64,000 bases of DNA from NCBI RefSeq assembly GCF_013170805.1, contig NZ_CP051293.1, positions 5,834,001-5,898,000 on the forward strand. Reading direction: 5' to 3'. Every line of letters starts with the position of its first letter. Position 1 is the first letter of the stretch. Positions 22,886 through 63,288 of the stretch are shown one piece after another. The notes below the pieces were generated by a model. That model did not search any database. It saw only the letters and a list, made by a program, of their open reading frames with translations, and was not told the origin of the DNA. Made by a program: the position numbers and the translations under genes. The stretch is from Mesorhizobium sp. NZP2077 (GTDB lineage Bacteria; Pseudomonadota; Alphaproteobacteria; Rhizobiales; Rhizobiaceae).

Positions 22886-22891
22886 CAGCAC

Positions 22892-23431: not shown

Positions 23432-23434
23432 ACC

Positions 23435-24940: not shown

Positions 24941-24987
24941 TTTGCAGCAACAACATCTTGGTTTTTTAAAAGCGGTGGAGAGAGAAA

Positions 24988-26191: not shown

Positions 26192-26192
26192 G

Positions 26193-37298: not shown

Positions 37299-37822
37299 AC
37301 ATTGGATTCTTCGGCAAGATCCCGGCGACCGGAGATTTCGTCGCCGCCAACCTGCCGCGGACTTTCATCGACCGCTGGGACCGCTGGATGTCGATGGAGT
37401 TGCGCGCGCGGCCGGATGAGCACGAGGACCTCGATGACCGCGTCTGGCGCTTCGTCATCCAGGGCGCGATTTTTGGCGAACAACCCTGCGCCGGTGCCTG
37501 GCGCATGAGCCAGGACCGTGTCGGCCGCCGCTATCCTTTCGCTGTTGTGAGCATTGGCGCGATGCCAGAGGCGGCGGATCCCTGGTTCGAGGGCATGGCG
37601 GACATCGCCAATCTGACTGTGAAGGAGCTTTGGGACCAGCAATACATCGCGGCGCGCCTACGAGCGCTGGAACCGCCAAGACAGTTCTCCGCACTGAAGC
37701 GCATTGTTTTCTGGACGGATGACTGGGAGGTGCGTGAACTCGCCTTCGCTGACATTCATGACCTCGCCGACAACGCGCTGCCGGCAATGCGCGCGGCGCG
37801 TGCCGTGCCACAGGAGCCATGA
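37280..37822 (+). CDS. tagF: Type VI secretion-associated protein TagF
   Basis: A 180-residue TagF/ImpM (DUF2094) protein, recognised by INIGFFGKIPATGDFVAANLPRTFIDRWDRWM. TagF represses T6SS at the post-translational level in Pseudomonas. In Agrobacterium it is fused to a PppA-type phosphatase; here the phosphatase is a separate gene at 52465. ATG 37280 lies inside the end of tssM. Its stop overlaps the next start (ATGA), linking the effector cassette to the structural operon. Confidence 0.9.
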   Translation: MSAADINIGFFGKIPATGDFVAANLPRTFIDRWDRWMSMELRARPDEHEDLDDRVWRFVIQGAIFGEQPCAGAWRMSQDRVGRRYPFAVVSIGAMPEAADPWFEGMADIANLTVKELWDQQYIAARLRALEPPRQFSALKRIVFWTDDWEVRELAFADIHDLADNALPAMRAARAVPQEP

Positions 37823-42877: not shown

Positions 42878-43330
42878 TCAATTAAGGTGAACAGCCGCAC
42901 CCCGCACACGGTTCACGCCGCTTGCCTGGCTGCTCAGCTGACTGCCGCGTATCGAGATGCGACCATTCTTCTCCAGAATAATGGAGGCCAGGCCGCAACG
43001 CAGTTCGATGCGCTCCTTGGCATTCAGCGTCACTGTTTCGCCGTCGCGAACCACCTGCACTTGGTCACTCGGGTGTGCAGGATCCACAATACGTCCGACG
43101 ACGAGCGGGCGGCTCGGGTCGCCACCTTCGAAGAGCAGCGCCACCTCCGCGCCGACCGCCGAGGAGTCGAGCCTCGCCAGGCTGCGGGCCCTGAGTGCCG
43201 TCTCGCCGGGATTGCCGACGAACACCACGAGCGGCGCGCCATCCTCGAAGCCGATCAGCAGCCCGATGACGACACCGTCGATGCGTTCGACCGATTCGTC
43301 GCGTCCAGTCATTTCAGTTGTTGAAGACAT
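42878..43330 (-). CDS. DUF6484-like protein encoded after vgrG
   Basis: A 150-residue beta-rich protein with DGVVIGLLIGFEDGAPLVVF, VGAEVALLFEGGDPSRPLVVGRI and a C-terminal LRCGLASIILEKNGRISIRG. The last part mimics the repeat style of VgrG and Gp5 spikes. It looks like the DUF6484 group encoded beside vgrG. ATG 43330 has AAGGG five bases upstream and overlaps the end of vgrG by 17 bases; ATG 43312 is an alternative. It may bind the spike or the effector. Confidence 0.7.
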   Translation of the reverse strand: MSSTTEMTGRDESVERIDGVVIGLLIGFEDGAPLVVFVGNPGETALRARSLARLDSSAVGAEVALLFEGGDPSRPLVVGRIVDPAHPSDQVQVVRDGETVTLNAKERIELRCGLASIILEKNGRISIRGSQLSSQASGVNRVRGAAVHLN

Positions 43331-45638
43331 TGCTACCCTTGATCTTGACGTCGCCGTCAGCTTTGACCTGGACATCGCCGCTGCCTTGGATGCGGATATC
43401 CTTGCCTTTAATGGAAATCGTGCCATCCTTTTTCATGGTGATGGAGGCGTCGCCGCATATCAGCGTGATCTCGTCGCCGGCATCGATCATCAACTTCTTG
43501 CCGACCTTGATCGAACTGTCTTCGGCAACTTGAATACCGCTGCCCTTGCCGACCTTGAGTGCGTGGCCCCCGCCGATTTCGGTGCTGTCGTCGGCGGCAA
43601 TGCTGGCGCTACGTGCCGCGCCGACGCTGAACGTTTGGGCGCTGCCAACGGTGATACTCTGGTCAGCTCCGACATTGATCGTTTGCGCCGCTCCCACGTT
43701 CCAGCTATCCGCGGTGCCGATGCTATGGCTCTGACTGAGCCCGACAGTGACCGACCGCGTCGCACCGATTGTATTCGTTTGCGGCCCGCCAACGCTTCGT
43801 GTCTCGGACGCCCCGACCGTATCAATGCGAGCCGCGCCAACAGTCACCGTCTGGACAATCCCCACCGTCTGCGAGTGGTTGGAGCCGATTGTCTCCGTCG
43901 AGTTCGAACCGATACCGATCGTCTCATTCGCCCCCACCGTCAGCGACCGGTTCTTGCCCACCGTCTCGGTGTCGTTCGAGCCGATATTGGTCGTCTGGTC
44001 GACGCCGACCTTGACCGTCTTGTTGTTGCCGACGTCCTCGTCGAGGTTGTGGCCGACGGAATGCTTGGCGTCGTGGTCAATGCGGTCGGACTGGTCGTGC
44101 TGGACGAGCTTCTTGCGATCATGCTTGATCAGAAGGTGGTGGTCTTTCTGCGCCTGGAAATTGACCAGTTCGGAGCCGGCCTTGTCCTCGAACATCAGCT
44201 CGTTGTAACCGCCGCCACCTTTCGAGGAGTTGGATTTCCACCCCGACTGCGTTGCGTTGCCCGGCAAGCCATAGGGCGGCATCTGCGAGGCGTTGTAGAC
44301 TCTGCCGGTGATGATCGGCAGGTCAGGGTCGCCTTCGAGGAAGTCGACTATCACCTCCTGGCCGATGCGCGGTATCTGGATGAAACCCCAGCCGCTGCCG
44401 GCCCAGGTCTGCGAGACACGCACGAAGCAGGAACTGTTTTCATTCTTCTTGCCCAGGCGGTCCCAGTGGAACTGCACCTTCACCCGCGCGTATTTGTCGG
44501 TGAATATCTCCTCGCCCGAAGGGCCGACCACTGTCGCCGTTTGCGGCCCGCGCATGATCGGCCGCGCCGTGATCCGCGGCGGGCGATAGGGCAAGGCAGT
44601 CGGCGCGACACCCAGCACGATCTTGTAATTCTCGCTGTGAGCCTCGTTCTGGGTTCTGTAGCCCGGATCGAACAGCCGATATTCGGCGCTGACCACCAGA
44701 TATTCCTGGTTCTGGTCGTCGCGCGGAAAGCTTTCCAGCTTGAAGGTGCAGCCGGAATGGAGGCCGCGCACGGTGCCGACGGCCGTGATGCGCTGGTGCA
44801 CGGCCTGGAGTTCCTCGCGCCGGATGCCGGCCAGGGTGTCGCCGCGCCCGACATCGAGATGCGCCCCAGGCTGGCGATAATTCTCGCCGGAGGCTTCCTT
44901 GTGGCTGAACGGTTGGGCCGACTTCGCCATCAGGTCGGCACCAGGCTTCTTGAAATCATAGTCGGTGTGGGCATAGGCGCCGGGCCGCACCGAACTGCCC
45001 GGAATCCATTCCGTGATGTATTCGACGTCGCGCCGCGAGCCCTGTCCCTCGAAATTATAGGGTATCTTCTCGTAGCCCGGCGCCGGCTTCAGCTTGCTCA
45101 TCGCGTCGCACAGCACCAGCGTGTGCTTGCCCTCGTCATGCTCGAAGAAATAGAAGATGCCTTCGTGCTCGAGCAGGCGCTGGACGAAATCGAGATCGCT
45201 CTCGTCGTACTGGACGCAGTATTCGCGCGAGGGGTACGACCCTTGCAGCCGCTTCTCGAATTTTGCCGTACCGTATTTCGAGAAAATCTTTTCGACGATC
45301 TCGACAGCGGTCATGTTCTGAAAGATCCGGCAATCTGTGGCATTGCCGAGGAACCAGAGCCACGGCCTGACGATCGCTTCGTAGTAGGCCAGCCGGTCTT
45401 CGATGCGGGTCAGGCGAAATTCGGACACCAGACCGCTGAACCACCGTTTCGGATCGGATTCACCTTCGACCGAAACCATGCCCCCCAGCATCTTCAGCGG
45501 ATCGATATCGTGGCTCGGGCTGACGAACCCGACCGTATAGGCAAAGCAGCGGCTGATCTCGTCGCGGCCGACAAGATGCGTGAAGGTCAGCTCGGCGCCG
45601 ACCGGTGTCTGCACAACAGTGGCACGTTCGTTCGGCAT
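43314..45638 (-). CDS. vgrG: Type VI secretion spike protein VgrG (TssI)
   Basis: A 774-residue VgrG trimer subunit with gp27-like and gp5-like domains. TFTHLVGRDEISRCFAYTVGF opens the fold, GIFYFFEHDEGKHTLVLCDA lies mid-domain, and GWGFIQIPRIGQEVIVDFLEGDPD marks the gp5-like OB region. Residues about 526-693 are a long series of TVGxxxxxxIG-type repeats forming the needle, followed by a short tail with SITMKKDGTISIKGKDI. No effector domain is fused. ATG 45638 follows AGGAGGGG. It heads a minus-strand operon with the DUF6484 and TIGR02270 genes. Confidence 0.95.
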   Translation of the reverse strand: MPNERATVVQTPVGAELTFTHLVGRDEISRCFAYTVGFVSPSHDIDPLKMLGGMVSVEGESDPKRWFSGLVSEFRLTRIEDRLAYYEAIVRPWLWFLGNATDCRIFQNMTAVEIVEKIFSKYGTAKFEKRLQGSYPSREYCVQYDESDLDFVQRLLEHEGIFYFFEHDEGKHTLVLCDAMSKLKPAPGYEKIPYNFEGQGSRRDVEYITEWIPGSSVRPGAYAHTDYDFKKPGADLMAKSAQPFSHKEASGENYRQPGAHLDVGRGDTLAGIRREELQAVHQRITAVGTVRGLHSGCTFKLESFPRDDQNQEYLVVSAEYRLFDPGYRTQNEAHSENYKIVLGVAPTALPYRPPRITARPIMRGPQTATVVGPSGEEIFTDKYARVKVQFHWDRLGKKNENSSCFVRVSQTWAGSGWGFIQIPRIGQEVIVDFLEGDPDLPIITGRVYNASQMPPYGLPGNATQSGWKSNSSKGGGGYNELMFEDKAGSELVNFQAQKDHHLLIKHDRKKLVQHDQSDRIDHDAKHSVGHNLDEDVGNNKTVKVGVDQTTNIGSNDTETVGKNRSLTVGANETIGIGSNSTETIGSNHSQTVGIVQTVTVGAARIDTVGASETRSVGGPQTNTIGATRSVTVGLSQSHSIGTADSWNVGAAQTINVGADQSITVGSAQTFSVGAARSASIAADDSTEIGGGHALKVGKGSGIQVAEDSSIKVGKKLMIDAGDEITLICGDASITMKKDGTISIKGKDIRIQGSGDVQVKADGDVKIKGSNVFNN

Positions 45639-45887
45639 GGGTCGTGCCCCTCCTGGACGCGGCCGCCGGCGCGGTGGATTTGAAGTTCCCGCCATCTCAT
45701 CAGGAACTTTTCAGGCCCGCCGCACCAGGCCATGTTGAGCCTACCACATGTTGTCGCGCCGACCAAAGAGGAGGCACGGCGGAAAAACCTTACCATGTCG
45801 ACGCATCGCCTCGAAACGCTGCTGTCCTGTTGGATGTGCAAACTGCTAGAATGTGGAGTATCGGTCAGTGTTCGACGGCGATCCTGG
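45639..45887. promoter_or_regulatory. Divergent region between vgrG and the second FHA gene
   Basis: A 249-base region between divergent genes that should hold the vgrG promoter and a promoter for the second FHA gene. In-frame extensions of both neighbours run into it but lack homology. No clear hexamers or inverted repeats were identified. Confidence 0.4.
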
Positions 45888-46934
45888 ATGTACATCAGTC
45901 TGCAAATCAACAATGTCGATGCCTTGCCTGCGGGCATCTCGACCGGCTACGCGGCGCGGGATCGCGGCTTCGAAATCGGACGCGATGCTTGCGACTGGAC
46001 CTTGTCGGACCCCGACAAATTCATCTCGGGCCGGCATTGCGAGGTCCGCTACGAGGCAGGCGCGTTCTGGCTGCACGATGTCTCGCGCAACGGCACCTAC
46101 ATCAACGGGTCAAGTCAGCGCATGACCGGCCCGCATCGGTTGGGCAATGGCGACCGGATGCTGATCGGCCGTTATGTCATTTTCGTCTCGATCGATGAGG
46201 AGCGCGCCACGACCGGTCATCCCAGCCACGGTTCGACGCAGCGCGAAATGCCGGCCGCGGCAGGCCGGTCGCTGGAATTCGGAGATGGGCCGTTCTTCGA
46301 TCCCGCGGAGCAACGGTCCGGGCAGCGGGTTGCGGCATTGACGTTCCCGTCGCCTTTGCCCTCGACCAGGGAAGATGTGCTTCGGGAAATCGCGATCGGA
46401 GCCGGCATCTCGCCGGAATTGCTGCAATCGCGCGACCCGCATGAAGTTGCCGCCGAAATCGGCGGGGTGCTGCGGACGGTGGTCGAGGAACTGACCTTGC
46501 TGCTGAAGGCGCGCGCGGCGGCAAAGATGCTGGCCAAGAGCACGCAACGAACGATGATCAGCGCCGCCGACAACAATCCCTTGAAGTTCGTTCCGGGAAC
46601 CGACGAGATCCTCGAAATCATGTTCGCACGGCGCCGAGCCGGTTATCTCGATGCCAGGCGCAGCATCGAGGATGCATTCCGCGATCTCAAGACGCACGAA
46701 TTCGCCACCTATGCCGCCATGCAGGCGGCGCTGTCGCGGCTGCTTGACGACCTGTCTCCGGAAGCGATCGGAAGAAAGCTTCCGCCGACATCATTCTCGT
46801 CGAAAAAGAGCCAGGCCTGGGACGCTTTTGTCGCGACCTGGCGAACCATGGAGGAATCCCACGAGAACGGCATGTTGGACATATTCCTGGCCTATTTCAG
46901 CGAAGCCTATGCCAAGGCCGACAAGCAGAAATAG
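45888..46934 (+). CDS. FHA-domain type VI accessory protein, copy 2
   Basis: A 348-residue protein with an N-terminal FHA domain (about 8-100: FEIGRDACDWTL, ISGRHCEVRY, SRNGTYING) and a C-terminal VasC-type domain (about 180-348: NPLKFVPGTDEILEIMF, FATYAAMQAALSRLLDDL). It is shorter than copy 1 because the long Pro-rich linker is missing. ATG 45888 begins the conserved part; an in-frame start at 45732 would add 52 unlike residues. It precedes the second tssL-tssM pair and the pppA-ppkA genes, so it may serve that module. Confidence 0.85.
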   Translation: MYISLQINNVDALPAGISTGYAARDRGFEIGRDACDWTLSDPDKFISGRHCEVRYEAGAFWLHDVSRNGTYINGSSQRMTGPHRLGNGDRMLIGRYVIFVSIDEERATTGHPSHGSTQREMPAAAGRSLEFGDGPFFDPAEQRSGQRVAALTFPSPLPSTREDVLREIAIGAGISPELLQSRDPHEVAAEIGGVLRTVVEELTLLLKARAAAKMLAKSTQRTMISAADNNPLKFVPGTDEILEIMFARRRAGYLDARRSIEDAFRDLKTHEFATYAAMQAALSRLLDDLSPEAIGRKLPPTSFSSKKSQAWDAFVATWRTMEESHENGMLDIFLAYFSEAYAKADKQK

Positions 46935-47234
46935 GCGCTCCAGCGGAGCCGTGGCGTTGCAGCCGATGAAGATACTTCTTCGGTGCGCTGCATCCGGTTC
47001 CAATCGAGAATTTGCGGGATTACGATCGCATACGACAATTCGCCAAGCGGGTAAGGCTGATCGACCTGGGGGTCTGCGGCAAATGTCATCTTACGGCGGG
47101 ATAGCAAGTTTTAGTCTGCCTTCCTCAAGACAGAGCCCTGACCTGCGGGGCCTGCCTTTGCTTTACCTGACCGCGAGAAGCTTTGCGCCTGTCCGCCAAG
47201 AGGGCGGACGTCAGGCGCGGACGGGCGATCGGCC
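46935..47234. promoter_or_regulatory. Gap between second FHA gene and second tssL, with a hairpin
   Basis: A 300-base gap with no supported gene. Its end holds a strong stem at 47185-47218: GCGCCTG and TCCGCC pair with GGCGGA and CAGGCGC around an AAGAG loop, with a three-base bulge. The stem ends 16 bases before the tssL start, where no clear Shine-Dalgarno site is visible. A promoter may also lie here, but none is obvious. Confidence 0.45.
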
Positions 47235-48728
47235 ATGAGCTCGAAAGACGATCCTTTCGGCCCGGCGGGCAAGACCGTCATTCGCGCCACGCCACGGCGT
47301 GAGCGAAAGCCGGCGCCCGTCTCTCAGGAGCCCGCTCGGGATGGCGGGCAACCGTCGCAGGTCAAGGACTCGACCGTGTTCGATCCCGGCGTCGGCCGAC
47401 ATACACCGCCGGGCTGGGCATCCGGGACGGTAATCTATCAGGGAACGCCTTCCGCGGCCGCTGCGGTGCCGGCGCCGGCCCTGCGGCAGGAGACCCTGCT
47501 CAATGTCACCGACGGTATCCGATATTCCGCGGCAAACCCGATCCTTGCCGCGGCCGCACCGTTGCTGATGCTGTTCGGCCAGCTCAGGCTTGTCCCCGTC
47601 GAGAGACAGGCGGAGCCGTTGGCCGAACATGTCGCTGAGGCGATTGATAAATTCGACAGGGCACTGGAGAAATCGGGCGTTGCCGAAGAGGATGCGCGGA
47701 TTGCGAAATTTGTTCTCTGCGAAACCGCCGACGATCTCATCGGCAACCTGCCTTGGCCGCGCAAAGACGTCTGGGCGCAGCACAGCATGCTGTCGCAGTT
47801 CTTCCACGTCGAGCCCAACGGCACGGGCTTTTTCGAAGCGCTGAACAAAATCCTGGCCATTCCGGAGGCACATTACGACCTGCTCGAACTGATGCATGCC
47901 TGCCTGTCGCTGGGGTTCGAGGGGCAGTATAGAGGCCTGACACACGAGGACACCAATCTTGAACGCGTCCGGCGCGACGTCTACGAAACGCTTCGCTATT
48001 TCAAGCCTCGTGCGGACGCGGACATCTCGCCCCGCTGGCAAGGCCTGGCGGCGACGATGACGCAATCGTCGACACGCCTTCCGCTCTGGGTCGTCGCGGC
48101 AGCAGCGTCGGCGCTGCTGACAGCGGCGTTTTTCGCACTTCGTGTCTTCATCACCAATGAAGGCGACGCTACTGCCGGTGAATTGCTGGCACTCACCCCA
48201 TCGACACCGATCGCCATCGAGCGGGCCAGCGTGGCGCCATTGGCGGAGCCGGTGAAAGTCGCTCCCCCTGCAGCCACAACCACGCAGATTGATCGCATCC
48301 GCTCGGCGCTGGCCAAGGAAGTCGAGGCCGGCGGGCTGACCGTGGGCACGAAGGGCGACTTCATCGTCGTGGAAATCAACAATCTCCTGCTGTTCCAGTC
48401 CGGCAGGGCCGATGCGAAACCGGAGTTCCAACCCATAGCCGCCGATATCGCTGCCGCCCTGGAACCCGAGCGCGGCCCGATCAGGATCGTCGGCCATACG
48501 GACAATGTGAAGCCGCGAAAATCGAGCCCGTTCAAGTCCAACTTCGATCTCTCCGTCGCCCGGGCGAAGGCCGTCGAAACGATGGTGGCGCCGAAGTTCA
48601 GCGATCCTTCGCGGCTGACCGTCGACGGCAAGGGCGAGGACGAGCCGATCGCCGACAATGCAACGCCGGAAGGCCGCGCCAAGAACCGCCGTGTCGATGT
48701 GATGATCGCCAAGGAGGAAACATTGTGA
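47235..48728 (+). CDS. tssL2: Type VI secretion membrane protein TssL with OmpA domain, copy 2
   Basis: A 497-residue DotU/TssL paralogue. A disordered N-terminus (about 1-85) precedes the DotU domain (about 90-270; NPILAAAAPLLMLFGQLR, FVLCETADDLIGNLPW, YDLLELMHACLSLGFEGQYRG). A membrane segment is at about 279-300 (LPLWVVAAAASALLTAAFF). The OmpA-type domain follows (VEINNLLLFQSG, GHTDNVKPRKSS, AKNRRVDVMIAKE). Both functional halves look intact, so this is not a pseudogene. It is followed by the second tssM after 22 bases. Confidence 0.93.
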   Translation: MSSKDDPFGPAGKTVIRATPRRERKPAPVSQEPARDGGQPSQVKDSTVFDPGVGRHTPPGWASGTVIYQGTPSAAAAVPAPALRQETLLNVTDGIRYSAANPILAAAAPLLMLFGQLRLVPVERQAEPLAEHVAEAIDKFDRALEKSGVAEEDARIAKFVLCETADDLIGNLPWPRKDVWAQHSMLSQFFHVEPNGTGFFEALNKILAIPEAHYDLLELMHACLSLGFEGQYRGLTHEDTNLERVRRDVYETLRYFKPRADADISPRWQGLAATMTQSSTRLPLWVVAAAASALLTAAFFALRVFITNEGDATAGELLALTPSTPIAIERASVAPLAEPVKVAPPAATTTQIDRIRSALAKEVEAGGLTVGTKGDFIVVEINNLLLFQSGRADAKPEFQPIAADIAAALEPERGPIRIVGHTDNVKPRKSSPFKSNFDLSVARAKAVETMVAPKFSDPSRLTVDGKGEDEPIADNATPEGRAKNRRVDVMIAKEETL

Positions 48729-48750
48729 GCACGGCCGGTTGGAAGCGCCG

Positions 48751-51700
48751 ATGACGCGTTGGCTGCTGCGGATCTTCAGCATGATCGCGCTGGCCAGTTT
48801 TTCGGCGGCAGTGTGGTTTGTCGGACCTTTGATCCGCTTCGCCGATAGCCGTCCTCTCGGACCTGTCTGGCTGCGCGCGGCAATCATCGCTGTGATCGTG
48901 GCGGCCTTGGCGCTCTTCTATGGATTGCGTTTCTGGCGGATGCGCAAGGCGCAAAAAGCGCTGGAGACGGCCGTTGCCCGCAATGACGACAGGGATGACG
49001 ACTCGCAGGTGCTCGAGACGCGGATGAACGAGGCGATCGCCGCGCTCAAACGGTCGAGCGGCAAGCGCAATTTCCTCTATGAGGTCCCCTGGTACATCAT
49101 CATCGGCCCGCCCGGCGCGGGCAAGACAACGGCACTGGTCAATTCGGGCCTGAATTTTCCGCTGGCGGGTTCCGGCGATGCCCAGCCAGTCGCCGGCGTT
49201 GGCGGAACCCGCGCTTGCGACTGGTGGTTCACCGATCAGGCCGTGCTGATCGACACCGCCGGACGCTACACGACGCAGGAGTCCAATGCCGGGAGCGACA
49301 GCAAGAGCTGGCTCGCCTTCCTGTCGCTGCTCAAGAAATACCGCACACGGCAACCGATAAACGGCGTCATCCTGGCGATCAGCCTTGCCGATCTCATCGG
49401 CCTCGACGATCAGCAGCTTGACGCTCACGTCGTCGAGATACGCAGTCGTCTGCGGGAAATCCACGAGACGCTGAAAATCCAGTTTCCGGTGTATCTGCTG
49501 TTCACCAAGGCCGATCTCGTCGTCGGGTTCATGGACTATTTCGGCGCTTTCGACGAGCCACGCCGCCGCAAGGTCTGGGGCGCGACATTCCAGACCAGCG
49601 ATCGCATCAAGAACATGGCTGCCGAAGCGCCGGCCGAATTCGATGCACTGGCAAGGCGCCTGGTCGAGGAGATGCCCGACCGCCTTCAGGAAGAGGTCGA
49701 TCCGGTCGCGCGCATGTCCGTCTTCGGCTTTCCGGCACAGTTCGGCGCGCTGAAGGGCCGAGTTGCCAGTTTTGTCGCCAGCCTGTTCGATCCGACCCGC
49801 AGCCAGGTCAATGCCAGCCTGCGTGGGCTCTATTTTTCGTCAGGCACGCAAGAGGGAACGCCGATCGATCAGGTGCTGGGTGCGATAGGCCGCAGCTTCG
49901 GCAGCAATTCCCGCGCCCATCTTTCCGGAAGCGGCAAAAGCTTCTTTTTGCATGATCTGCTGACCGGCGTCATTTTTGCCGAATCCGGATGGGTCTCCTA
50001 CGACAAATCGGCGACAAGGCGGGCAGTGATCGCCAGATTTGCCGGGCTTAGCGCCAGTGCCTTGATCGCAGCAGCGGCTCTCGGCACCCTGGCCCTGAGC
50101 TTCACGGCCAACAGGTCGCTGATTGCCTCCACCACGCAGGCCATGGGCCAGTATCGCACGACGGCGGACGCGCTGCTCAAAAGCACCGAGGTCACCGATG
50201 TCGACCTCGAAAACGTCATCGGTCCGCTTGACCAGTTGCGCGACCTGCCGGCCGGGTTCGAAACCGGCGACATGCCGACACCGATCGAGGAGACGTTCGG
50301 CCTCAGCCAGCGGGAGCGACTGCTTTCGGCGTCCAAGACGGCTTACCGGCAAGCACTGGAACGCATGTTCCGATCGCGCCTGCTGATCCAGGCCGAGCGG
50401 ACGATCCAGGCCAAAATGGCCGACCCCGCCGCGCTCTACGAGCCGTTGAAGATCTATCTGATGCTTGGCGGCAAGGCGCCGAAGGTCGACGACGCGTTGA
50501 TCGTTTCCTGGATGAAGCAGGATTGGGAGCAGAACCGCTATCCAGGCGAAAACAACCGCGCAGGACGCGAGCAGCTCGAAAAGCATTTGCGCGCCATGCT
50601 TGCCCTGGACGACGCCTATGATCCGGTTTTCGAACTCAACCAGCCGCTCGTCGAAGCCGCTCAGCGCTCGCTCGGGCGCATGAGCCTTGCCGACCGCGCC
50701 TCCGCCTTGATCAAGTCTGCGGTATATTCGGCAGCGCTGGAGGATTTTTCCGTTTCTGTCAAAGGCGGACCGGAGGCGCAGCTCCTGTTCGAGCGTGTCG
50801 ACGGCGGCGACCTGTCAGGCCTTCGTGTTCCCGGCCTCTATACCTATGCGGGCTTCAACACCTTCTATCTCGGTCAGCTCTCGCGCATTGCGCAGACGCT
50901 CGTCGACGACCAGTGGGTCCTTGGCGGTGGCGGCGAACAGGGCGGTATCGATCAGGAACTGCTCAAGCTCGGCCCCGAACTTCTCGATCGCTATGGCAAG
51001 GAATTTGCAGCGGCGTGGAACAGCGTTCTCGACGGGTTGAAGTTCAAGGCGATGTTGAAGGACAAGCCGCACTACATCGCGCTTTCCGCCGTCGCCTCGC
51101 CCACCTCGCCGATCGAACAGCTGTTTACGGCGATCGCCGACGAAACCGCCCTGACGCGGGAGGCCAAAGACTCAGGCACCGGGGTTGAGGCCGGCACGGT
51201 TCAAGGCCAGTCTCCGGACGCAGCAAAGATGGCCAAGGGTCTGGCTCGTATCGGCATACAAATCGCCACCGGAAAATCACAAAGCCGTGCCGGCACGGGA
51301 TCGGCAGCAGCGCAAAACCAGAGCCCCGGGGCCAATATCGAAGCGCAGTTCAGGTCGTTCCAGGCCCTGGTGAGCGGCCCTGCCGGACGCCGCCCGATCG
51401 ATGCCTTGACCCAGAATTTCCGTGACATCTACCAGAGCCTGAAACTGGCGACCGACGTGCCGTCGCAAACGGAACGCGTCAACGCCAATCTGCAGCTGCA
51501 GATAGCTACCCTTCGCGCCAATTCCTCGCGCCTGCCCAAGCCACTCGCCAGAATGGTCAATGCGACGGCGGACGAGTTTGAAGGCAACGTCACGGAGACT
51601 TCGGTGGCGAATTTGAACCAGATGCTCGACCAGGCGGTCACGGCACCTTGCGAAGCGGCGATCAACGGCCGTTATCCTTTCTCCGGCACCGGCGCCGACG

Positions 51701-52305
51701 ACATGGCGATGGCGGATTTCGCCAAACTGTTCGCACCGGGTGGGCTGCTGGACCGGTTCTTCGCGCAAAATCTCGCTTCGCTGATCGACATGAGCGGCCA
51801 GGACTGGAGCTGGAAACAGGATGCGCGCTTCGGCCGCGACCTGTCGAAGTCGACGCTGAAAAACTTCCAGCTGGCGGCCGAAATCCGCAGCGCGTTCTTT
51901 CCCCAGGGCGGTTCGGCGCCTTCGGTCAGCATCACCTTCACGCCGTTCTCACTGCATGGTGATGCCGATGCGGCGGTGCTCGATGTCGACGGCCAGACCG
52001 TCCAGAGCAACCAGGCGGGCAGCGCGCCGAGCACCTTGACATGGCCGAGCGGTGCAGCTTCGGGATCCGCCAGCCTGAGCCTCACGCCAGAGATGCCAGG
52101 CCGCGAATCCAGCATCAAGTTCGAAGGGCCGTGGGCGCTGAAGCGGCTCATGGACAAGGCGACCATCACCGGCACCGACAACAATGTCCAAGCGCGCTTC
52201 GTGATCGGCGGACGCGACGTCACCTATACGATCCAGACTGGCTCCGGCCCCAACCCGTTCCTGCTTCCGGCACTTTCCGGATTCAGCTGTCCGAAGGCGT
52301 TTTGA
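48751..52305 (+). CDS. tssM2: Type VI secretion membrane protein TssM (IcmF), copy 2
   Basis: An 1184-residue TssM paralogue. Membrane segments lie at about 6-28 and 42-60, with Walker A GPPGAGKT at 119-126, then VLIDTAGRYTTQES, a third membrane segment near 423-446, and a full periplasmic region ending ALSGFSCPKAF. It aligns throughout with copy 1 but is clearly divergent. ATG 48751 has GGAAG upstream; an in-frame TTG at 48739 is less likely. With the second TssL it makes a complete second inner-membrane module. Confidence 0.95.
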   Translation: MTRWLLRIFSMIALASFSAAVWFVGPLIRFADSRPLGPVWLRAAIIAVIVAALALFYGLRFWRMRKAQKALETAVARNDDRDDDSQVLETRMNEAIAALKRSSGKRNFLYEVPWYIIIGPPGAGKTTALVNSGLNFPLAGSGDAQPVAGVGGTRACDWWFTDQAVLIDTAGRYTTQESNAGSDSKSWLAFLSLLKKYRTRQPINGVILAISLADLIGLDDQQLDAHVVEIRSRLREIHETLKIQFPVYLLFTKADLVVGFMDYFGAFDEPRRRKVWGATFQTSDRIKNMAAEAPAEFDALARRLVEEMPDRLQEEVDPVARMSVFGFPAQFGALKGRVASFVASLFDPTRSQVNASLRGLYFSSGTQEGTPIDQVLGAIGRSFGSNSRAHLSGSGKSFFLHDLLTGVIFAESGWVSYDKSATRRAVIARFAGLSASALIAAAALGTLALSFTANRSLIASTTQAMGQYRTTADALLKSTEVTDVDLENVIGPLDQLRDLPAGFETGDMPTPIEETFGLSQRERLLSASKTAYRQALERMFRSRLLIQAERTIQAKMADPAALYEPLKIYLMLGGKAPKVDDALIVSWMKQDWEQNRYPGENNRAGREQLEKHLRAMLALDDAYDPVFELNQPLVEAAQRSLGRMSLADRASALIKSAVYSAALEDFSVSVKGGPEAQLLFERVDGGDLSGLRVPGLYTYAGFNTFYLGQLSRIAQTLVDDQWVLGGGGEQGGIDQELLKLGPELLDRYGKEFAAAWNSVLDGLKFKAMLKDKPHYIALSAVASPTSPIEQLFTAIADETALTREAKDSGTGVEAGTVQGQSPDAAKMAKGLARIGIQIATGKSQSRAGTGSAAAQNQSPGANIEAQFRSFQALVSGPAGRRPIDALTQNFRDIYQSLKLATDVPSQTERVNANLQLQIATLRANSSRLPKPLARMVNATADEFEGNVTETSVANLNQMLDQAVTAPCEAAINGRYPFSGTGADDMAMADFAKLFAPGGLLDRFFAQNLASLIDMSGQDWSWKQDARFGRDLSKSTLKNFQLAAEIRSAFFPQGGSAPSVSITFTPFSLHGDADAAVLDVDGQTVQSNQAGSAPSTLTWPSGAASGSASLSLTPEMPGRESSIKFEGPWALKRLMDKATITGTDNNVQARFVIGGRDVTYTIQTGSGPNPFLLPALSGFSCPKAF

Positions 52306-52464
52306 GATGGGCTTCGAACTTTTCAACGCGGTGACACCCTGCAAGAGCCGCAGGCGCCCAGACCTTAATTTCGATACTTTAATGGCCGAGCCTGTGGCAG
52401 ACTGGCGAGAGCGGGCGCCCGGGAGTGCGACGCAGAGGACGCGTGAGACGCGTTTGGTGGCAAG

Positions 52465-53238
52465 GTGAGCGATGTCGCCCTTCCCTTTGACAGTTTCGGC
52501 GTGAGCCACAAGGGCTGTGTCCGCGAGGTCAACGAAGACAACTATCTGCTCGAGCCACGAACCGGGCTTTGGGTGGTGGCCGACGGAATGGGCGGACATG
52601 ATGCCGGAGAGGTCGCCTCGGCCAGCATTGTCGACCACCTGGCCACGATCGGCATCGCAAGCTCAGCTCCGGATCTGCGGGCGCGTTTCGAGGACAGGCT
52701 GAGCCGGGCCAATGCCGAGATCCGTGGCATATCGGAGTTGCGCGGCATCACCATCGGCTCCACCGTCGCCGCCCTGTTGGCGATGGACGGACGGTTTGCC
52801 TGCCTTTGGGCGGGTGACAGCCGGGTCTATCTGATCCGCAACGCCACGATCTCGCAGATTTCGAAGGACCACACCGAAGTGCAGGAACTGCTGGATCGAG
52901 GCATGATCAGCGCGGCCGAGGCTCTGACCTGGCCACGCCGCAATGTCATCACGCATGCGGTCGGCGTGAGCGACGACTTCGTCATCGACTTCCAGCAGGG
53001 CGAACTGATACCGGGGGACATTTTCGTACTGGCCACCGACGGGCTGACGGCACATGTCACCGACGCGGAGATCGAGGCCGCAGTGGTGTCGGCGACGCCT
53101 CAGGCGGCCTGTGAAAACCTGCTGGAAACGGTTCTGGCGCGCGGCGGAACGGACAATGTCACCATTGTGCTGGTAAAGATCGGAAACGGGCGCAATGGAC
53201 AATCGCTCCACCCTGATCTGTCCAGAGCGGAGGGCTGA
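52465..53238 (+). CDS. pppA: Type VI secretion PP2C-family serine/threonine phosphatase PppA
   Basis: A 257-residue PP2C-type phosphatase. The metal-binding motifs are VNEDNYL, VVADGMGGHDAGEVAS, WAGDSRVYLIR, ATDGLTAHV and GGTDNVTIVLV. In Pseudomonas T6SS, PppA reverses PpkA phosphorylation of the FHA protein and turns the system off. The start is GTG 52465. It lies five bases before ppkA, and a 159-base gap separates it from tssM copy 2. Confidence 0.93.
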   Translation: MSDVALPFDSFGVSHKGCVREVNEDNYLLEPRTGLWVVADGMGGHDAGEVASASIVDHLATIGIASSAPDLRARFEDRLSRANAEIRGISELRGITIGSTVAALLAMDGRFACLWAGDSRVYLIRNATISQISKDHTEVQELLDRGMISAAEALTWPRRNVITHAVGVSDDFVIDFQQGELIPGDIFVLATDGLTAHVTDAEIEAAVVSATPQAACENLLETVLARGGTDNVTIVLVKIGNGRNGQSLHPDLSRAEG

Positions 53239-53243
53239 GGCTG

Positions 53244-55817
53244 ATGAGCGCCGACGACAAGACGCGAATATCGCCGCAGGTCGCCAACACCGCGGTCGGC
53301 ACGCAGCTCAGCGGCATCTACGAACTTGACGAACGGATCGCGTTCGGCGGCATGGGAGAGGTCTATCGCGGCCACAACATCCAGACCGGAGACCACGTCG
53401 CCATCAAGATCGTGCTGCCCGAGTTTGCCCGTGATCAGACGATCCTGTCCTTGTTCCGCAAGGAGGCCTCGATCCTCAACCATTTGTCGCATGACGCGGT
53501 CGTGCGATACCACGTCTTCACCATCGATCCCGGGATCGGCCGTCCCTACCTCGCCATGGAATTCGTCGACGGCGAGTCGCTGTTCGACATCATGCGACGT
53601 GGCCCGATGCCGACGGAAGAGGTGCGCAAGCTCTGTCATCGCCTCGCATCCGGCCTGGCCGCCGTGCATCAGGCGGGAGCAATCCATCGCGACCTCTCGC
53701 CCGATAACATCATCCTGCCGGGGGGGCGGGTCGACCGCGCAAAGATCATCGATTTCGGCATCGCTCGATCGGCGACCGTGGGCGGCGAGACGTTGATCGG
53801 CGGAAAGTTCGCGGGAAAGTACAACTACGTTTCACCCGAACAGCTCGGGCTGTACAGCGGCGACGTCAGCGAGCAGTCCGACATCTACAGCCTTGGGCTG
53901 GTGCTGGCCGCCGCCCTGCGCGGCAAGCCGATCGACATGAGCGGATCACAGTACGAGATCATCGAAAAGCGCCGGACCGTGCCTGATCTCTCCGACATCG
54001 ACGACGATTTTCGTGGCATTGTCGAAGCCATGCTGCAGCCGGATCCGCAAGACCGGCCGGTCAGCATGGCTGACATCGCCAGGATGACGCGCGGCGAAGA
54101 CGAAGCGACAACACCGCCGCCATCCAGGACACCCCGCGACCGGCCGGCTTTGCCAGCGGCCGGGCAAACGCTTGTTCCTGATCCCGGGTCGCGGCCCCAG
54201 CCCTCCAATGTCGCGGGCCACAGCGCGCCGACGGCAACGGGTCCGGGCGAGCAGGGCTTCGTTCCGCATGTCCGGCCCGCGCATTTGTCCAGACCGTTGC
54301 CTTCGCCGGTCGTCGGCCCTCCGCACGCGCTCGCCACGGATGTACGTGGAAAATCCACGAAGACGCGAACCATCGCGATTGCTGCCCTGGCGACGCTGGC
54401 TGTCGCATCAGGCGCGGGCCTGTATCTGAGCGGCTTCATGACGCCTGCGACCCCGACTGCCGGCAAGACATCGCTTTCGCCCGAACCATCGAAGCCTGTA
54501 GCAGCGGAGACGTCAAAGCCGACCCCCACGGACAAGGTCGCGAGCGCCCCCGAGCCGGCAACGACAGTTCCGCCCGCGCAGCCGGAAGCCGGCGTGCCGC
54601 CGGCTGAAAAACAGCCCGATGCCGTGGCGAGCCAACAGCCGCTGCCGGCCAAGCCCGCCGATATCCCCTCGCAGGCTGAGCCCCCCCCGAAGCCGCCGGC
54701 AACGGCAGCGCAATCGCAAACAGAGGCCAGCGCGCCGCAAGCTGGAAGCCAGACAGATGCCAAGGCCGTGAAGACGGCGGAGCCGGCAAAGCCCATTGCT
54801 CCCCCGCAAGCCACGGAACCACCAAAGCCATTGGCAACGGAAGTGCAGCAGCCGTCCGCAAAGACATCGCCGACACCCCAGCCGGATACGATGGCCAGCA
54901 ACAATCAAACGGCAACTCCGGCGCATGAGACGACAGCTCCGCCCGCGACAGCCGAGAAGGTGGCAACGCCGCCACCGGCCGAGCCGAAGGTTGTGGAGAC
55001 CCCAAAGCCCGAGCCTCGGATCAGCCAGCCGGAAGCGCCCAAGCCGGCAATGCCGGCACCCAAACCTACTTCAGGCCCGACGGATGTCGCGAAAACCGAG
55101 AACCAAGCGGCGCCGGCCAGCCAGCCGGACCAACCAGTCGTCGCTTTGAACGTGCCCAAACCGGCGGTCCCCCCGGTCGTCGATGACAGCGCGCAACGTG
55201 TCTCCTGGGTTCGCGACTTCGGCGGCGGCGACTGTTTCTATGCGACCATGACGTCGTCGACCGACAAGGCCGCCGCGATCGAAGGCTTTGGCACCGCGGT
55301 GCAGCCATTCGAACGGATGCTCGGCGATTTCCAGGCAAAATTCCATGTCGAGCCGGACATCAGCGTCCGCCTCATCGAGCCAAGCCAGTGCGAAGTCACC
55401 AACTTTCTGCGCTTTCTCGGGCAGACCGCAGCCGACAAGCCGCAGCTTGTTCTCGACCGGACATCGGTGCCTGATGGTACGCCGATCAGCGGCACGCTCG
55501 TGACGCGCGGCGGGCTTATTTCCAGCGTCCTGCTGATCGATCACAAAGGCATGGTATTCAATCTCGACGACCGCATCATCGCACATTCCGCCAAGGCTAC
55601 CTTCAACATCCCGATTGGCCTTGGCGCCGCCGACAAGGCCGCCGGGAAGGCCGTGCCGCAGATCATAATGGTGATCACCGGCCCGCAGGATATCCAGGCG
55701 GCAGCCTTCTCGACGCCGACGCCAGCCTCGGTGCTGCTGCCCAAAATTCTCGAAGAGATCGAAACCGACGGATCGCAATTTTCAGCCACCGCCAAGTATT
55801 TCCGGCTCGGCGGATAG
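53244..55817 (+). CDS. ppkA: Type VI secretion serine/threonine kinase PpkA
   Basis: An 857-residue membrane kinase. The cytoplasmic kinase domain (about 25-285) has FGGMGEVYRG, Lys55 in VAIK, HRDLSPDN (Asp150), DFG (170-172) and YVSPEQ. One membrane segment is at about 375-398. A very long Pro/Ala/Lys-rich stretch (about 400-655) follows, then a periplasmic globular domain (about 660-857). It should sense an envelope signal and phosphorylate an FHA protein to activate secretion. Which of the two FHA proteins is its target is open. Confidence 0.93.
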   Translation: MSADDKTRISPQVANTAVGTQLSGIYELDERIAFGGMGEVYRGHNIQTGDHVAIKIVLPEFARDQTILSLFRKEASILNHLSHDAVVRYHVFTIDPGIGRPYLAMEFVDGESLFDIMRRGPMPTEEVRKLCHRLASGLAAVHQAGAIHRDLSPDNIILPGGRVDRAKIIDFGIARSATVGGETLIGGKFAGKYNYVSPEQLGLYSGDVSEQSDIYSLGLVLAAALRGKPIDMSGSQYEIIEKRRTVPDLSDIDDDFRGIVEAMLQPDPQDRPVSMADIARMTRGEDEATTPPPSRTPRDRPALPAAGQTLVPDPGSRPQPSNVAGHSAPTATGPGEQGFVPHVRPAHLSRPLPSPVVGPPHALATDVRGKSTKTRTIAIAALATLAVASGAGLYLSGFMTPATPTAGKTSLSPEPSKPVAAETSKPTPTDKVASAPEPATTVPPAQPEAGVPPAEKQPDAVASQQPLPAKPADIPSQAEPPPKPPATAAQSQTEASAPQAGSQTDAKAVKTAEPAKPIAPPQATEPPKPLATEVQQPSAKTSPTPQPDTMASNNQTATPAHETTAPPATAEKVATPPPAEPKVVETPKPEPRISQPEAPKPAMPAPKPTSGPTDVAKTENQAAPASQPDQPVVALNVPKPAVPPVVDDSAQRVSWVRDFGGGDCFYATMTSSTDKAAAIEGFGTAVQPFERMLGDFQAKFHVEPDISVRLIEPSQCEVTNFLRFLGQTAADKPQLVLDRTSVPDGTPISGTLVTRGGLISSVLLIDHKGMVFNLDDRIIAHSAKATFNIPIGLGAADKAAGKAVPQIIMVITGPQDIQAAAFSTPTPASVLLPKILEEIETDGSQFSATAKYFRLGG

Positions 55818-55925
55818 CATGGGCGCCCGATGGAACGCTGCCGCGCGTGTTTGCCCAACTCGTCCGCTGACCTGCCCAGAGAGCAGCGTGATCCGGCTCG
55901 AGCGCTGCTTGCCCTGACGGACCGC

Positions 55926-56336
55926 ATGAAGCTTGCGGTCATGGCAGGGGCAGCACTGCTGGCCGTGCTGTTGTCCAGCGAAGCGCGCGCCGAATTCACG
56001 GTCTGCAACCAGACACTCGACGTCGTCAATCTGGCGGTCGGCCAGAAGGTCGACAATGCGGACCAGACCGACGGATGGTGGACCATCGGCGCAAATCAAT
56101 GCGTGAACGTCATCCGCGAAGAACTGACGAACCGCTACATCTACATCTATGCGACTGATGTGTTTGGCCATGCGATCCTGACCGGGTCGACCGAGATGTG
56201 CATCGAGCGGCGGCGTTTCTCGATCCGCGGCATCGACGAGTGCTGGCAGCGCGGCCATATCGCGGCGCAATTTCTCGAAGTCGATACGCTTGAACAGGTG
56301 CGGTGGACCTTCTTCCTGACCGGAAGCAATCCGTGA
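55926..56336 (+). CDS. DUF1036 family secreted protein
   Basis: A 136-residue protein with a signal peptide (MKLAVMAGAALLAVLLSSEARA) and a DUF1036-type mature domain with TVCNQTLDVVNLAVG, DGWWTIGANQCV and IYIYATDVFG. The function of the family is unknown. ATG 55926 was chosen because the signal peptide begins there; an in-frame ATG at 55830 has no signal. It lies between ppkA and the M23 gene, overlapping the latter (GTGA), so it is part of the ppkA transcription unit. Confidence 0.8.
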   Translation: MKLAVMAGAALLAVLLSSEARAEFTVCNQTLDVVNLAVGQKVDNADQTDGWWTIGANQCVNVIREELTNRYIYIYATDVFGHAILTGSTEMCIERRRFSIRGIDECWQRGHIAAQFLEVDTLEQVRWTFFLTGSNP

Positions 56337-58756
56337 CGCACAGTATCGACACCAGCTTCAGGGAGAAAAAACAGGCGCGCGCTGCGCTGCGCAGGCGTAC
56401 GCTCTGGCGTCGGCGCATTGCCGGGTTCGCCGTAATTGTCCTGCTTTCCATCGCCGCCGGTTTCTACTTCACTGCGGACTATTGGTCGTTCGGCGACGAA
56501 GACGAGGAGCTGCACGCAGTCGAAGGTGCGGACGATGTGCCGGCCGATGCATCCGTCTATGTGCCGGCCATCATCGACCTGGCGGGAGATCCGATGTGGA
56601 TTACGCTAGCGCCCGATGCCGACACGGCAAGCAAGGGTCATACGGTAGCGCGCCCGGTCGAGCTCGACAGTTCCGGCGCCTCGCCGCAGATCGAGATCCT
56701 CTCCGATGTGATGCTGAGTGCCAGCGAAAAATTCATGACGACGATCCCGTCGACGCAGGAGGACTTCGCATTCTTCCAGGCACAGCGGCGGACCGCTCCG
56801 ACACCTCCGGCCGCCGCACCCACTGAGCAGGCCGCTCCGCCTGCCCCGGCGGTGGCGCCTGACGACCAGCAGGGCGACCTGAATAACGAGCTGGCGGCAC
56901 CCGATGCGAGCGGAGCCCCGGTCGGTTCGGCGCCCAAGCCGGATGCCGACGACCCGGAGGCCGGCTGGGGAGAGACCATCGATCAGGGCGAGGCAGCGCT
57001 GCCCGCCTTCAAGAAGACCCAGATCGAGAACAATACGACCGTCGCAACCGTGACCAGCGAGTACCAGCGCTTCGAGGCGACCGAAGACACGTTCGTGAAG
57101 ATCCTCAACGACCGCAGCCTGGACAGCGTGGCACTCGATGCACATTTCTCCGCCGACGATGCCAAGCTGGCCGGCGAAGCCCTGAAGGCGCTCTTCAACC
57201 GGGACGGTCTGGAACCGGGTTATGTCGTTGCCATGCGCGGCTTCCGGCCGAACCGCGAGACGACGACGATGTCGCTGATGCAGGTGTCGATCTACGCCAA
57301 GAATGTCTTTGTCGGCACGCTGACGCGCAACGCCGCGGGCGCCTTCGTGTCGGGTGTGGACCCCTGGGTCCGCGAGGACCTGTTCAACTATTCCGGTGCC
57401 GATCAAGGCGGGCCCAAGCGGCAATACCGCCTGCTCGACGCGATCTATTCGACGGCTGCGCGCAACAAGGTTCCAACCGGCGTCATCGGCGAGGCGATCA
57501 TGTACCTGTCGCGAGGGCAGGACCTCGACGCCTTCGCCAGCGAGGACCAGCGCCTGGTGCTGATCTACTCGCAGACGCCGCGCGGCAAGGAAGAGACGTC
57601 CGGGCGGGTCCTTTATGTCGGCGTTCAGGGCGGTGAGAAGACCATCGACTGTTTCGTCTTCCAGCAGAGCGACGGCCAGTTCGCCTGTGTCACCGGCAAT
57701 GACGAGGTGCGCTCGCTGACTGTCGCCAACGGCATGGTGACGCCGGTGAACGGGGTCATGACCTCGACCTTCGGCCCGCGCAAGCACCCGATCCTCGGCG
57801 TCGTTCGCATCCACAAGGGTGTCGATTGGGCAGCCCCTGTCGGCACACCGATCATGGCGGCCTTCGACGGCGAAATCAGCTTCCAGGGCGATGGCGGCAG
57901 CTATGGCAATCTGGTGAAGATTTCGCATGCGAATGGGCGCGAGACGCGCTACGCGCATATGCAAAAATTCGCCATTGCGAGCGGCGTCGGCACCAAGGTG
58001 AAGGCCGGGGACGTCATCGGCTATATCGGCACCACCGGGCTGTCGACCGGCCCGCATTTGCATTTCGAGCTCTACCAGAACGGCGAGGCGATCGATCCGC
58101 TGGGGACGGTCACCACGGTCGCCACCTATGATACTGGCAATTCCGGCAATTCCGGCAATTCCGGCGATGTCGCCGTCGAGACGCTGACCGAGCGTATCGT
58201 TCATGTCGAAAGCGGCGGCAGCGCCCGCGCCAAGAATCCGAATTCCTCGGCGACTGGCGCCGGCCAGTTCATAACCAAGACGTGGATCCGGATGATGAAC
58301 ACCTATCGCCCGGACCTTGCACGCACGTTGTCGACCGCCGACCTCTTGGCCCTGCGCTACGACGCCACCATCTCGCGCGAGATGGTGCGCAATCTGGCGC
58401 GCGAAGGCGAGGCCTATCTACGGGCGCGTGGTCACCAGATCACAGCCGGCCGGCTCTATCTCTGTCATTTCCTGGGCATGGAAGGCGCACATCAGGTGCT
58501 GTCGGCGCCCGGTTCGGCGCAACTGAGCGCCGTGCTGGGGTCGGCCGTCATCCAGGCCAACCCGTTTCTCACCGGCAAGACAGCCAGCTATGTGGTGGAC
58601 TGGGCCGAAAGGAAGATGGGCCAGAAGCTGAGCCGCGTGGCCACCGACGCCACCCCGCCGGCTGCGACGACTGAGATCCGCCAGACATCGCCGGAGTTTG
58701 AAAAATACAAGCAGGCCGTCACCGCCCTCATCAGCTCGATTCAGACTGCGCTTTGA
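56333..58756 (+). CDS. Membrane-anchored M23 peptidase with C-terminal lysozyme/transglycosylase-like domain
   Basis: An 807-residue protein. A short basic cytoplasmic tail and one membrane segment (about 29-47) are followed by a Pro/Ala-rich region and a beta-rich stalk. The zinc endopeptidase domain (about 470-585) has HKGVDWAAPVGTP (His494) and HLHFE (His575, His577). After a GNS repeat linker, residues from about 620 resemble lytic transglycosylases (IVHVESGGSARA, GAGQFITKTW). Both could cut peptidoglycan. GTG 56333 is preceded by GGAAG and overlaps the DUF1036 stop. It may open the wall for T6SS assembly; that role is inferred. Confidence 0.85.
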   Translation: MTHSIDTSFREKKQARAALRRRTLWRRRIAGFAVIVLLSIAAGFYFTADYWSFGDEDEELHAVEGADDVPADASVYVPAIIDLAGDPMWITLAPDADTASKGHTVARPVELDSSGASPQIEILSDVMLSASEKFMTTIPSTQEDFAFFQAQRRTAPTPPAAAPTEQAAPPAPAVAPDDQQGDLNNELAAPDASGAPVGSAPKPDADDPEAGWGETIDQGEAALPAFKKTQIENNTTVATVTSEYQRFEATEDTFVKILNDRSLDSVALDAHFSADDAKLAGEALKALFNRDGLEPGYVVAMRGFRPNRETTTMSLMQVSIYAKNVFVGTLTRNAAGAFVSGVDPWVREDLFNYSGADQGGPKRQYRLLDAIYSTAARNKVPTGVIGEAIMYLSRGQDLDAFASEDQRLVLIYSQTPRGKEETSGRVLYVGVQGGEKTIDCFVFQQSDGQFACVTGNDEVRSLTVANGMVTPVNGVMTSTFGPRKHPILGVVRIHKGVDWAAPVGTPIMAAFDGEISFQGDGGSYGNLVKISHANGRETRYAHMQKFAIASGVGTKVKAGDVIGYIGTTGLSTGPHLHFELYQNGEAIDPLGTVTTVATYDTGNSGNSGNSGDVAVETLTERIVHVESGGSARAKNPNSSATGAGQFITKTWIRMMNTYRPDLARTLSTADLLALRYDATISREMVRNLAREGEAYLRARGHQITAGRLYLCHFLGMEGAHQVLSAPGSAQLSAVLGSAVIQANPFLTGKTASYVVDWAERKMGQKLSRVATDATPPAATTEIRQTSPEFEKYKQAVTALISSIQTAL
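58136..58165 (+). repeat. 9-base tandem repeat inside the M23 gene
   Basis: Three perfect copies of GGCAATTCC at 58136-58162 plus a partial fourth encode Gly-Asn-Ser repeats. They form a flexible linker between the peptidase and the transglycosylase-like domain. The perfect repeats can change copy number in frame. Confidence 0.85.
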
Positions 58757-58922
58757 GCCGGCATTCCACGGCATCAGTCGCTCAGACTATTTGAGTCACT
58801 ATTTTCCGACCTTAGTGAACCAAAACCGCGGTCAGGACCACACAAGTCCAGGAGCCATTTTTTGGCACAGGCGACCCAGTCGCCGACGAAATTTAGCACC
58901 CTGGTGGGTAGAGGGCTGGTCC

Positions 58923-63281: not shown

Positions 63282-63288
63282 CGCACCC

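Follow-up and report, generated by a model that had tools for sequence, protein, structure and literature searches.

The locus described here, from a soil bacterium, raises the question of why a toxin-injecting type VI secretion system (T6SS) with one tail should possess two membrane anchors. The stretch analysed (the window) comprises 64,000 nucleotides of Mesorhizobium sp. NZP2077, i.e., positions 5834001-5898000 of contig 1 of a host genome of 7.69 Mb in 2 contigs, and contains a single T6SS cluster at about 18.6-58.8 kb. The set expected of a proteobacterial T6SS (TssA, B, C, Hcp, E, F, G, VgrG, ClpV/TssH, TssJ, K, L and M) lies entirely within this cluster, the gene order being TssH (reverse strand), TssA, B, C, Hcp, E, F, G, FHA1, TssJ, TssK, TssL1, TssM1 and TagF, followed by a PAAR-like gene, DUF2169, VgrG (reverse strand), FHA2, TssL2, TssM2, PppA, PpkA, DUF1036 and an M23 peptidase. 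The original prediction of two complete TssL-TssM pairs and two FHA proteins beside one tail set, one TssJ and one TssK is borne out by Pfam and NCBIfam profiles and by genome searches: a profile search of both contigs returned 2 IcmF_C matches, 1 TssK and 1 TssJ, which excludes a separate T6SS elsewhere in the genome as the owner of TssM2. Descriptions of T6SS membrane complexes generally assign a single TssJ-TssL-TssM set to each machine. On balance, the comparative evidence leans towards a reading in which the T6SS found here (type A) would be a fixed variant needing two kinds of membrane anchor, the second captured from a different T6SS (type B) and joined with the first in one heteromeric complex. 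The genes of the two anchor regions are the following:

29101..30603, + strand: FHA1 (TagH), with PF00498 and PF20232
30607..31059, + strand: TssJ, outer-membrane lipoprotein (PF12790), sole match in the genome search
31099..32433, + strand: TssK (PF05936), sole match in the genome
32435..33760, + strand: TssL1 (DotU and OmpA, Pfam), with the N-terminal threonine motif DDPFGLSEDRERTRIR
33762..37298, + strand: TssM1, the first anchor (Pfam; NCBIfam TssM equivalog, 1252 bits), Walker A GPPATGKT
45732..46934, + strand: FHA2 (TagH) of the second module, with PF00498 and PF20232 (FHA and T6SS_FHA_C); nearest to type-B FHA; alternative ATG at 45888
47235..48728, + strand: TssL2 (DotU and OmpA, Pfam), with the N-terminal motif DDPFGPAGKTVIR; nearest to type-B TssL
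48739..52305, + strand: TssM2, the second anchor, with four IcmF domains (Pfam), Walker A GPPGAGKT; nested in type-B TssM; alternative ATG at 48751
52465..53238, + strand: PppA, PP2C phosphatase (PF00481); nearest to type-B PppA
53244..55817, + strand: PpkA, Ser/Thr kinase (PF00069) with one predicted transmembrane segment (TM) near residue 377; nearest to type-B PpkA

TssM1 and TssM2 share 31.7% identity over 1207 alignment columns, TssL1 and TssL2 30.3%, and FHA1 and FHA2 about 31%. TssM2 belongs to TssM (IcmF) by its N-terminal TM pair, its NTPase domain with Walker A, and its periplasmic IcmF-related and C-terminal domains (TIGR03348, 1209 bits; cut-off 388), and TssL2 to the long form of TssL, with DotU, one TM and OmpA (TIGR03350, 157.8 bits; cut-off 139.8). 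Comparison of the window with six Mesorhizobium genomes and the M. ciceri plasmid gave ratios of nonsynonymous to synonymous substitution rates (dN/dS) of 0.04-0.09 for TssM1 and 0.125-0.163 for TssM2; purifying selection acts on both copies, less strictly on TssM2. Decay of one anchor copy is ruled out by these ratios, and the original prediction that neither copy is decaying, based on intact motifs, agrees with the domain content as well. Among 19 genomes with the form of second anchor found here (LONG), the pairwise identities have a median of 0.76 for TssM1 and 0.54 for TssM2, and the distances of the two proteins correlate at 0.95. The M. ciceri plasmid has an identical T6SS gene order, annotated with two tagH, two TssL-type genes (icmH, tssL) and two tssM; the closest plasmid-borne relatives in a TblastN search against plasmids (94% for TssM1, 83% for TssM2) are both from Mesorhizobium. 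Concerning the naming of these genes (32435-33760 of the window; 18677-19999 of locus L087), TssL1 and TssL2 both score above the cut-off that NCBIfam sets for its type IVB IcmH/DotU model, and the M. ciceri TssL1 is annotated as type IVB IcmH/DotU despite its location in a T6SS.

Type A is found in Mesorhizobium, Aminobacter, Chelativorans, Rhizobium, Sinorhizobium and the Rhodobacterales. Within the genus, 119 genomes were searched, 102 of which had an IcmF_C match and 99 of these 102 two or more, close linkage of both anchors being checked at the listed places and in the fetched loci only; the three genomes with a single match (G248, G286, G313) have another T6SS type at the matched place, and the assembly of G286 is fragmented. 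The family survey (218 genomes, 50 with a match) added 12 genomes outside the genus label with two TssM 14-20 kb apart on one contig, and one (G444) with its two TssM on two contigs. Two IcmF_C matches to one TssK were found in six of the 249 genomes of the order survey, all of the window's genus, and a seventh genome (G184) gave a single IcmF_C match and none for TssK. Nothing close to type A beyond the window's own was found in a sample of 385 genomes of the class (best other TssK match 242 bits), so that type A is patchily distributed. Species genomes were also scanned with type-A TssK (query headed by the Paracoccus TssK), and 79 genomes were searchable among the best 80 of 225 relatives. 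At least two IcmF-related matches, including two of the expected kinds, occurred in 77 of these 79, and eight (G953, G955, G969, G971, G1001, G1015, G1017, G1027) had a third full-length match elsewhere. No type-A genome without a second anchor was found among the 79, the two shortfalls being contig ends; SHORT, the other form of second anchor, is cut at such an end in G984, G1000 has SHORT together with the 3' part of TssM1, and the second TssM of G1010 is cut by a contig end. The form was SHORT in 44 and LONG in 35 of the genomes; SHORT is also present at locus L093. The second anchor thus seems, from these sequence surveys, to be obligatory in type A. Restriction of this arrangement to the Rhizobiales was rejected, since type A with a second anchor occurs in the Rhodobacterales too, and it is not confined to plasmids either, as exemplified by the chromosome of Mesorhizobium sp. 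L-8-3.

The phylogeny of both copies across the Rhizobiales, which the original prediction had called for, places them in separate lineages, with TssM2 in type B; the scope proposed proved too narrow, and the Rhodobacterales had to be included. Type B is a different alphaproteobacterial T6SS with its own TssK, which is followed by TssL, TssM, PppA and PpkA in 12 of 13 loci; L088 has TagF in between, and L064 has PppA-PpkA apart. Type-B loci match the second module of the window far better than the first. All type-A TssM1 (24 rows) form one clade in the TssM tree, and all 19 TssM2 fall inside a clade of 32 together with 13 type-B rows (SH-aLRT 100; the same with a mixture model and fewer rows); this tree left out four TssM fragments (L074, L076, L083, L051) and the SHORT rows. 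The nearest non-LONG row is type B for TssL2 (19/19), PppA (19/19), PpkA (16/16) and FHA2 (15/15), with rows below the bit or length limits excluded from these and from the motif counts given below, and L075 left out of one later comparison. A local tandem duplication of tssL-tssM was rejected: TssM1 and TssM2 are not sisters but lie in separate clades, TssM2 nested in type B. As judged from the trees, the Mesorhizobium second module (FHA2-TssL2-TssM2-PppA-PpkA) is a capture from type B. Monophyly of all LONG TssM2 was rejected (approximately unbiased (AU) test, p-AU 0.014), and the pair G461 and G531 seems to have arisen by capture on a separate, second occasion. More than a single change of the LONG label is likewise required in the trees of TssL, PppA and PpkA, and one in the FHA tree, from whose count this pair is absent for want of FHA2. 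A recognisable TssJ was found in 0/12 type-B genomes searched for it, whereas 8/8 type-A genomes were positive, and this would explain a single TssJ in a system with two anchors.

SHORT, which constitutes the second anchor of the Rhodobacterales, is a fusion of about 800-860 residues, in which the TssL cytoplasmic domain and the TssM periplasmic half are joined through one TM, without the NTPase; its neighbours are a separate OmpA protein, an M15 peptidase and a PP2C. It is not a TssM (IcmF) by domain content, the N-terminal NTPase domain PF14331 being absent, and DotU is present only in part; in a structural model its N-terminus fits the TssL cytoplasmic fold. SHORT is thus a predicted TssL::TssM chimera that may work like the periplasmic half of TssM. 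Keeping these two portions, it probably makes contact with the baseplate as well as with the periplasmic channel, and nucleotide hydrolysis would not be needed in the second member, given that SHORT has no NTPase half. SHORT was probably replaced by LONG, perhaps on two occasions.

Concerning the way in which both anchors might work on one tail, the complex of enteroaggregative Escherichia coli (EAEC) provides the closest frame: it consists of TssJ, TssL and TssM parts in a fivefold arrangement with TssJ:TssL:TssM of 3:2:2 per repeat, i.e., two TssM each (PMC6730261). Ten TssM chains are present in each of the entries 6ixh and 6hs7. There, however, one tssL and one tssM gene suffice, whereas the single tail here is served by a pair of divergent anchors. 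TssM1 and the second anchor most likely build one heteromeric membrane complex, in which TssJ-TssL1-TssM1 would be the anchor common to all type A, and the captured module (FHA2-TssL2-TssM2-PppA-PpkA, with DUF1036 and M23) would probably have replaced the SHORT that relatives still use. Where the normal fivefold complex is built on TssM pairs, type A would fill the two places with two different proteins; alternatively, two rings of one complex might each be made from a different anchor protein. TssM1 would contribute the NTPase and the link to TssJ, and the second anchor a further surface of TssL type for the docking of TssK, a pillar in the periplasm and an OmpA link to peptidoglycan. It is a tentative proposal, held with somewhat less than even confidence, that alphaproteobacteria possess a class of T6SS with an obligatory heteromeric membrane complex, in which the second anchor, either LONG or SHORT, is essential yet replaceable and the two TssM places of the fivefold complex are split between genes. 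That a single T6SS can require two forms of TssM has a precedent in the CTS1 T6SS of Citrobacter rodentium, where two length forms arise from one gene via transcriptional slippage and both are required (PMC4256274). That short form lacks the C-terminal end; SHORT, conversely, retains this end and is without the N-terminal NTPase half, and there are two genes of different origin here.

Further differences concern the regulatory genes. The original prediction that one of the anchors stands under phosphorylation control was not upheld. In A. tumefaciens, PpkA phosphorylates Thr14 of TssL and Fha binds it (PMC3953482), and the locus resembles that system in its kinase, phosphatase, FHA and N-terminal TssL threonine, at residue 14 in TssL2 too; the difference is one TssL there and, here, two TssLs with the motif threonine and two FHAs. 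The TssL2 motif reads MSSKDDPFGPAGKT(14)VIR, with a threonine at residue 14, and the threonine is aligned in 8/8 TssL rows of the alignment, TssL1 and TssL2 included. The pattern DPFG...[RK]TR[IV]R fits 113/113 TssL1 rows (97 with a stricter pattern; where the locus of a genome was fetched twice, each copy counts as a row), against 25 of the 34 TssL2/type-B rows that fit their own pattern. Given this greater invariance in TssL1, the control, if Agrobacterium-like, should act at least equally on TssL1. Within the fetched stretches of LONG modules, PppA is represented in 19/19, PpkA in 16/19 and FHA2 in 15/19, and the kinase is accordingly not bound to accompany the second anchor. No FHA2 was detected in the fetched LONG stretches of G423, G461, G520 and G531 (L011, L013, L019, L023), where the two TssLs may share one FHA protein, and PpkA was not found in those of L005, L015, L021 and L176 (the last from Aminobacter niigataensis); in these four, PppA is situated next to DUF1036 and M23. 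The pattern G-R..S..H, which we take to be the FHA signature, occurs in 91 of 108 FHA1 rows and 23 of 25 FHA2 rows. PpkA and PppA would have the N-terminal threonine of each TssL as their target, to be read by FHA1 and FHA2, and assembly would be licensed in this way; we infer this phosphorylation, like the co-assembly of the anchors and the order of events.

Several observations weigh against a single heteromeric complex and the history proposed for it. TssM2 evolves at about 2.4 times and TssL2 at about 2.8 times the TssM1 rate (slopes), which is not required of an obligate structural partner, and the correlation of TssM1 and TssM2 distances indicates co-inheritance only. Walker A is kept in TssM2 (32/35 LONG/type-B rows fit the pattern, one of them doubtfully), such that LONG TssM2 could equally be a full independent anchor. 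The AU test was run on a quick tree, after the split had been seen. Furthermore, the SHORT tree, in which SHORT lies on a long branch, puts three Rhizobiaceae rows among the Rhodobacterales with weak support (77, then 5), whereas in the TssM1 tree these rows lie outside; this conflict makes a transfer of SHORT possible and weakens the view that SHORT is the older form. In Paracoccus lutimaris (G955), moreover, SHORT shares a contig with TssM1 at a distance of about 430 kb, and in a few assemblies it is on a different contig; its retention in G955 across that gap is independent of linkage.

These points bear on three rival explanations. The faster evolution of TssM2 and the missing NTPase of SHORT would suit a second module outside the firing channel, acting as an envelope-remodelling or licensing scaffold that places an M23 or M15 peptidase, PppA and PpkA beside the real TssJLM, the more so as a PP2C gene is found in LONG and SHORT modules and a peptidoglycan peptidase in those examined, though the gene lineages differ. 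Such a scaffold, with which co-inheritance is as compatible as with one complex of both anchors, would have no obvious need for the two portions that SHORT retains, the TssL domain facing TssK and the periplasmic part of TssM, and is considered unlikely. The original prediction had offered a hybrid complex or two alternative docking sites, and the comparative evidence favours the former over the latter. Under the latter, TssL1-TssM1-TssJ and TssL2-TssM2 would form separate complexes, the same TssK baseplate would dock on either, and two firing modes would result; NTPase, DotU and OmpA are present in both anchors of the window, each TssL has a neighbouring FHA gene, and the type-B proteins related to TssM2 serve as anchors in a T6SS that has a TssK of its own. 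Self-sufficiency is nevertheless improbable for SHORT, the second anchor in 44 of the 79 type-A genomes (best 80 of 225), with its missing NTPase half and partial DotU; moreover, an optional alternative need not be present in every one of them, and some LONG clusters yielded no FHA2 (fetched stretches), so that this explanation appears rather unlikely. Ordinary redundancy, i.e., a duplicate or leftover anchor kept by chance such as the remnant of a second T6SS, was already disfavoured and is highly improbable. The module does stem from another T6SS type, so that a merger of clusters belongs to its history, but there is no further TssK in the genome, purifying selection acts on both copies, and second anchors come from at least two lineages, with none of the searched type-A genomes (best 80 of 225) lacking one, capture having probably been repeated. 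The heteromeric complex remains the preferred reading; anatomy, distribution and phylogeny have their basis in sequences, and the fold of SHORT in a model.

The remaining features of the cluster comprise the single tail and baseplate set of type A (21713..29134, + strand; Pfam, with NCBIfam for TssA and TssC; gene coordinates are bounds of open reading frames) and the genes flanking the two anchor modules:

18584-21430, - strand: double AAA Clp-type protein at the TssH position (M. ciceri counterpart annotated tssH)
21713-22885, + strand: TssA (Pfam, NCBIfam)
22892-23431, + strand: TssB (Pfam)
23435-24940, + strand: TssC (Pfam, NCBIfam)
24988-25449, + strand: Hcp (Pfam)
25376-26191, + strand: TssE (Pfam)
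26193-28067, + strand: TssF (Pfam)
27860-29134, + strand: TssG (Pfam)
37295..37822, + strand: TagF (PF09867)
43314..45695, - strand: VgrG (TssI; TIGR03361, 648 bits)
55830..56336, + strand: DUF1036 protein (PF06282), found in some type-B clusters too
56303..58756, + strand: M23 peptidoglycan peptidase (PF01551), found in some type-B clusters too

The DUF1036 protein is probably part of the captured module, and the M23 peptidase is a possible envelope-remodelling partner. The start given in the original prediction, position 45888, falls on an ATG inside the reading frame of FHA2. A 908-codon open frame antisense to VgrG (42957-45683, + strand) has no Pfam match and is most likely a GC-rich shadow frame. 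DUF2169 and ketoacyl-synthase-like genes (39549-41677) are situated near the PAAR-like gene, as in many mapped type-A clusters, and resemble a spike-loading set. Two caspase-like (Peptidase_C14) genes (58698-60539, + strand; 62037-63377, - strand) are found at the end of the cluster; such genes are also present within or adjacent to the type-A clusters of Sinorhizobium and Paracoccus, and some LONG clusters have them between VgrG and TssL2.

Among described systems, an i3-classified plasmid cluster of Rhodobacteraceae, Phyllobacteriaceae and Rhizobiaceae, proposed from TssB as a possible new subtype and plasmid-exclusive so far (PMC9113992), is probably type A, as suggested by the same three families; the available part of that report does not mention a second anchor, whereas type A is also chromosomal and has two anchors. 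No published T6SS with two tssL-tssM pairs, nor the SHORT fusion, was recognised in full-text searches of the literature, most subscription journals and all bioRxiv preprints lying outside their coverage. The original prediction had allowed for a heteromeric complex already established in this subtype; none was met in the literature searched, and the pair is nonetheless fixed genomically. Every part belongs to known T6SS families, and the constant second anchor and its two forms appear, as far as seen, to be undescribed. That the relatives checked keep a second anchor, sometimes cut down and fused, suggests a working part and not a spare copy. For annotation, this is a warning that an 'extra tssM' in type A does not mean a second T6SS. 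If the reading is true, there is a class of T6SS with a second, distant anchor in every checked genome, occurring in two non-sister forms, and the anchor would be divisible into two subunit types. This would make the roles of the two TssM copies per repeat testable, including whether the NTPase half is needed in both, for which SHORT would constitute a natural NTPase-less version.

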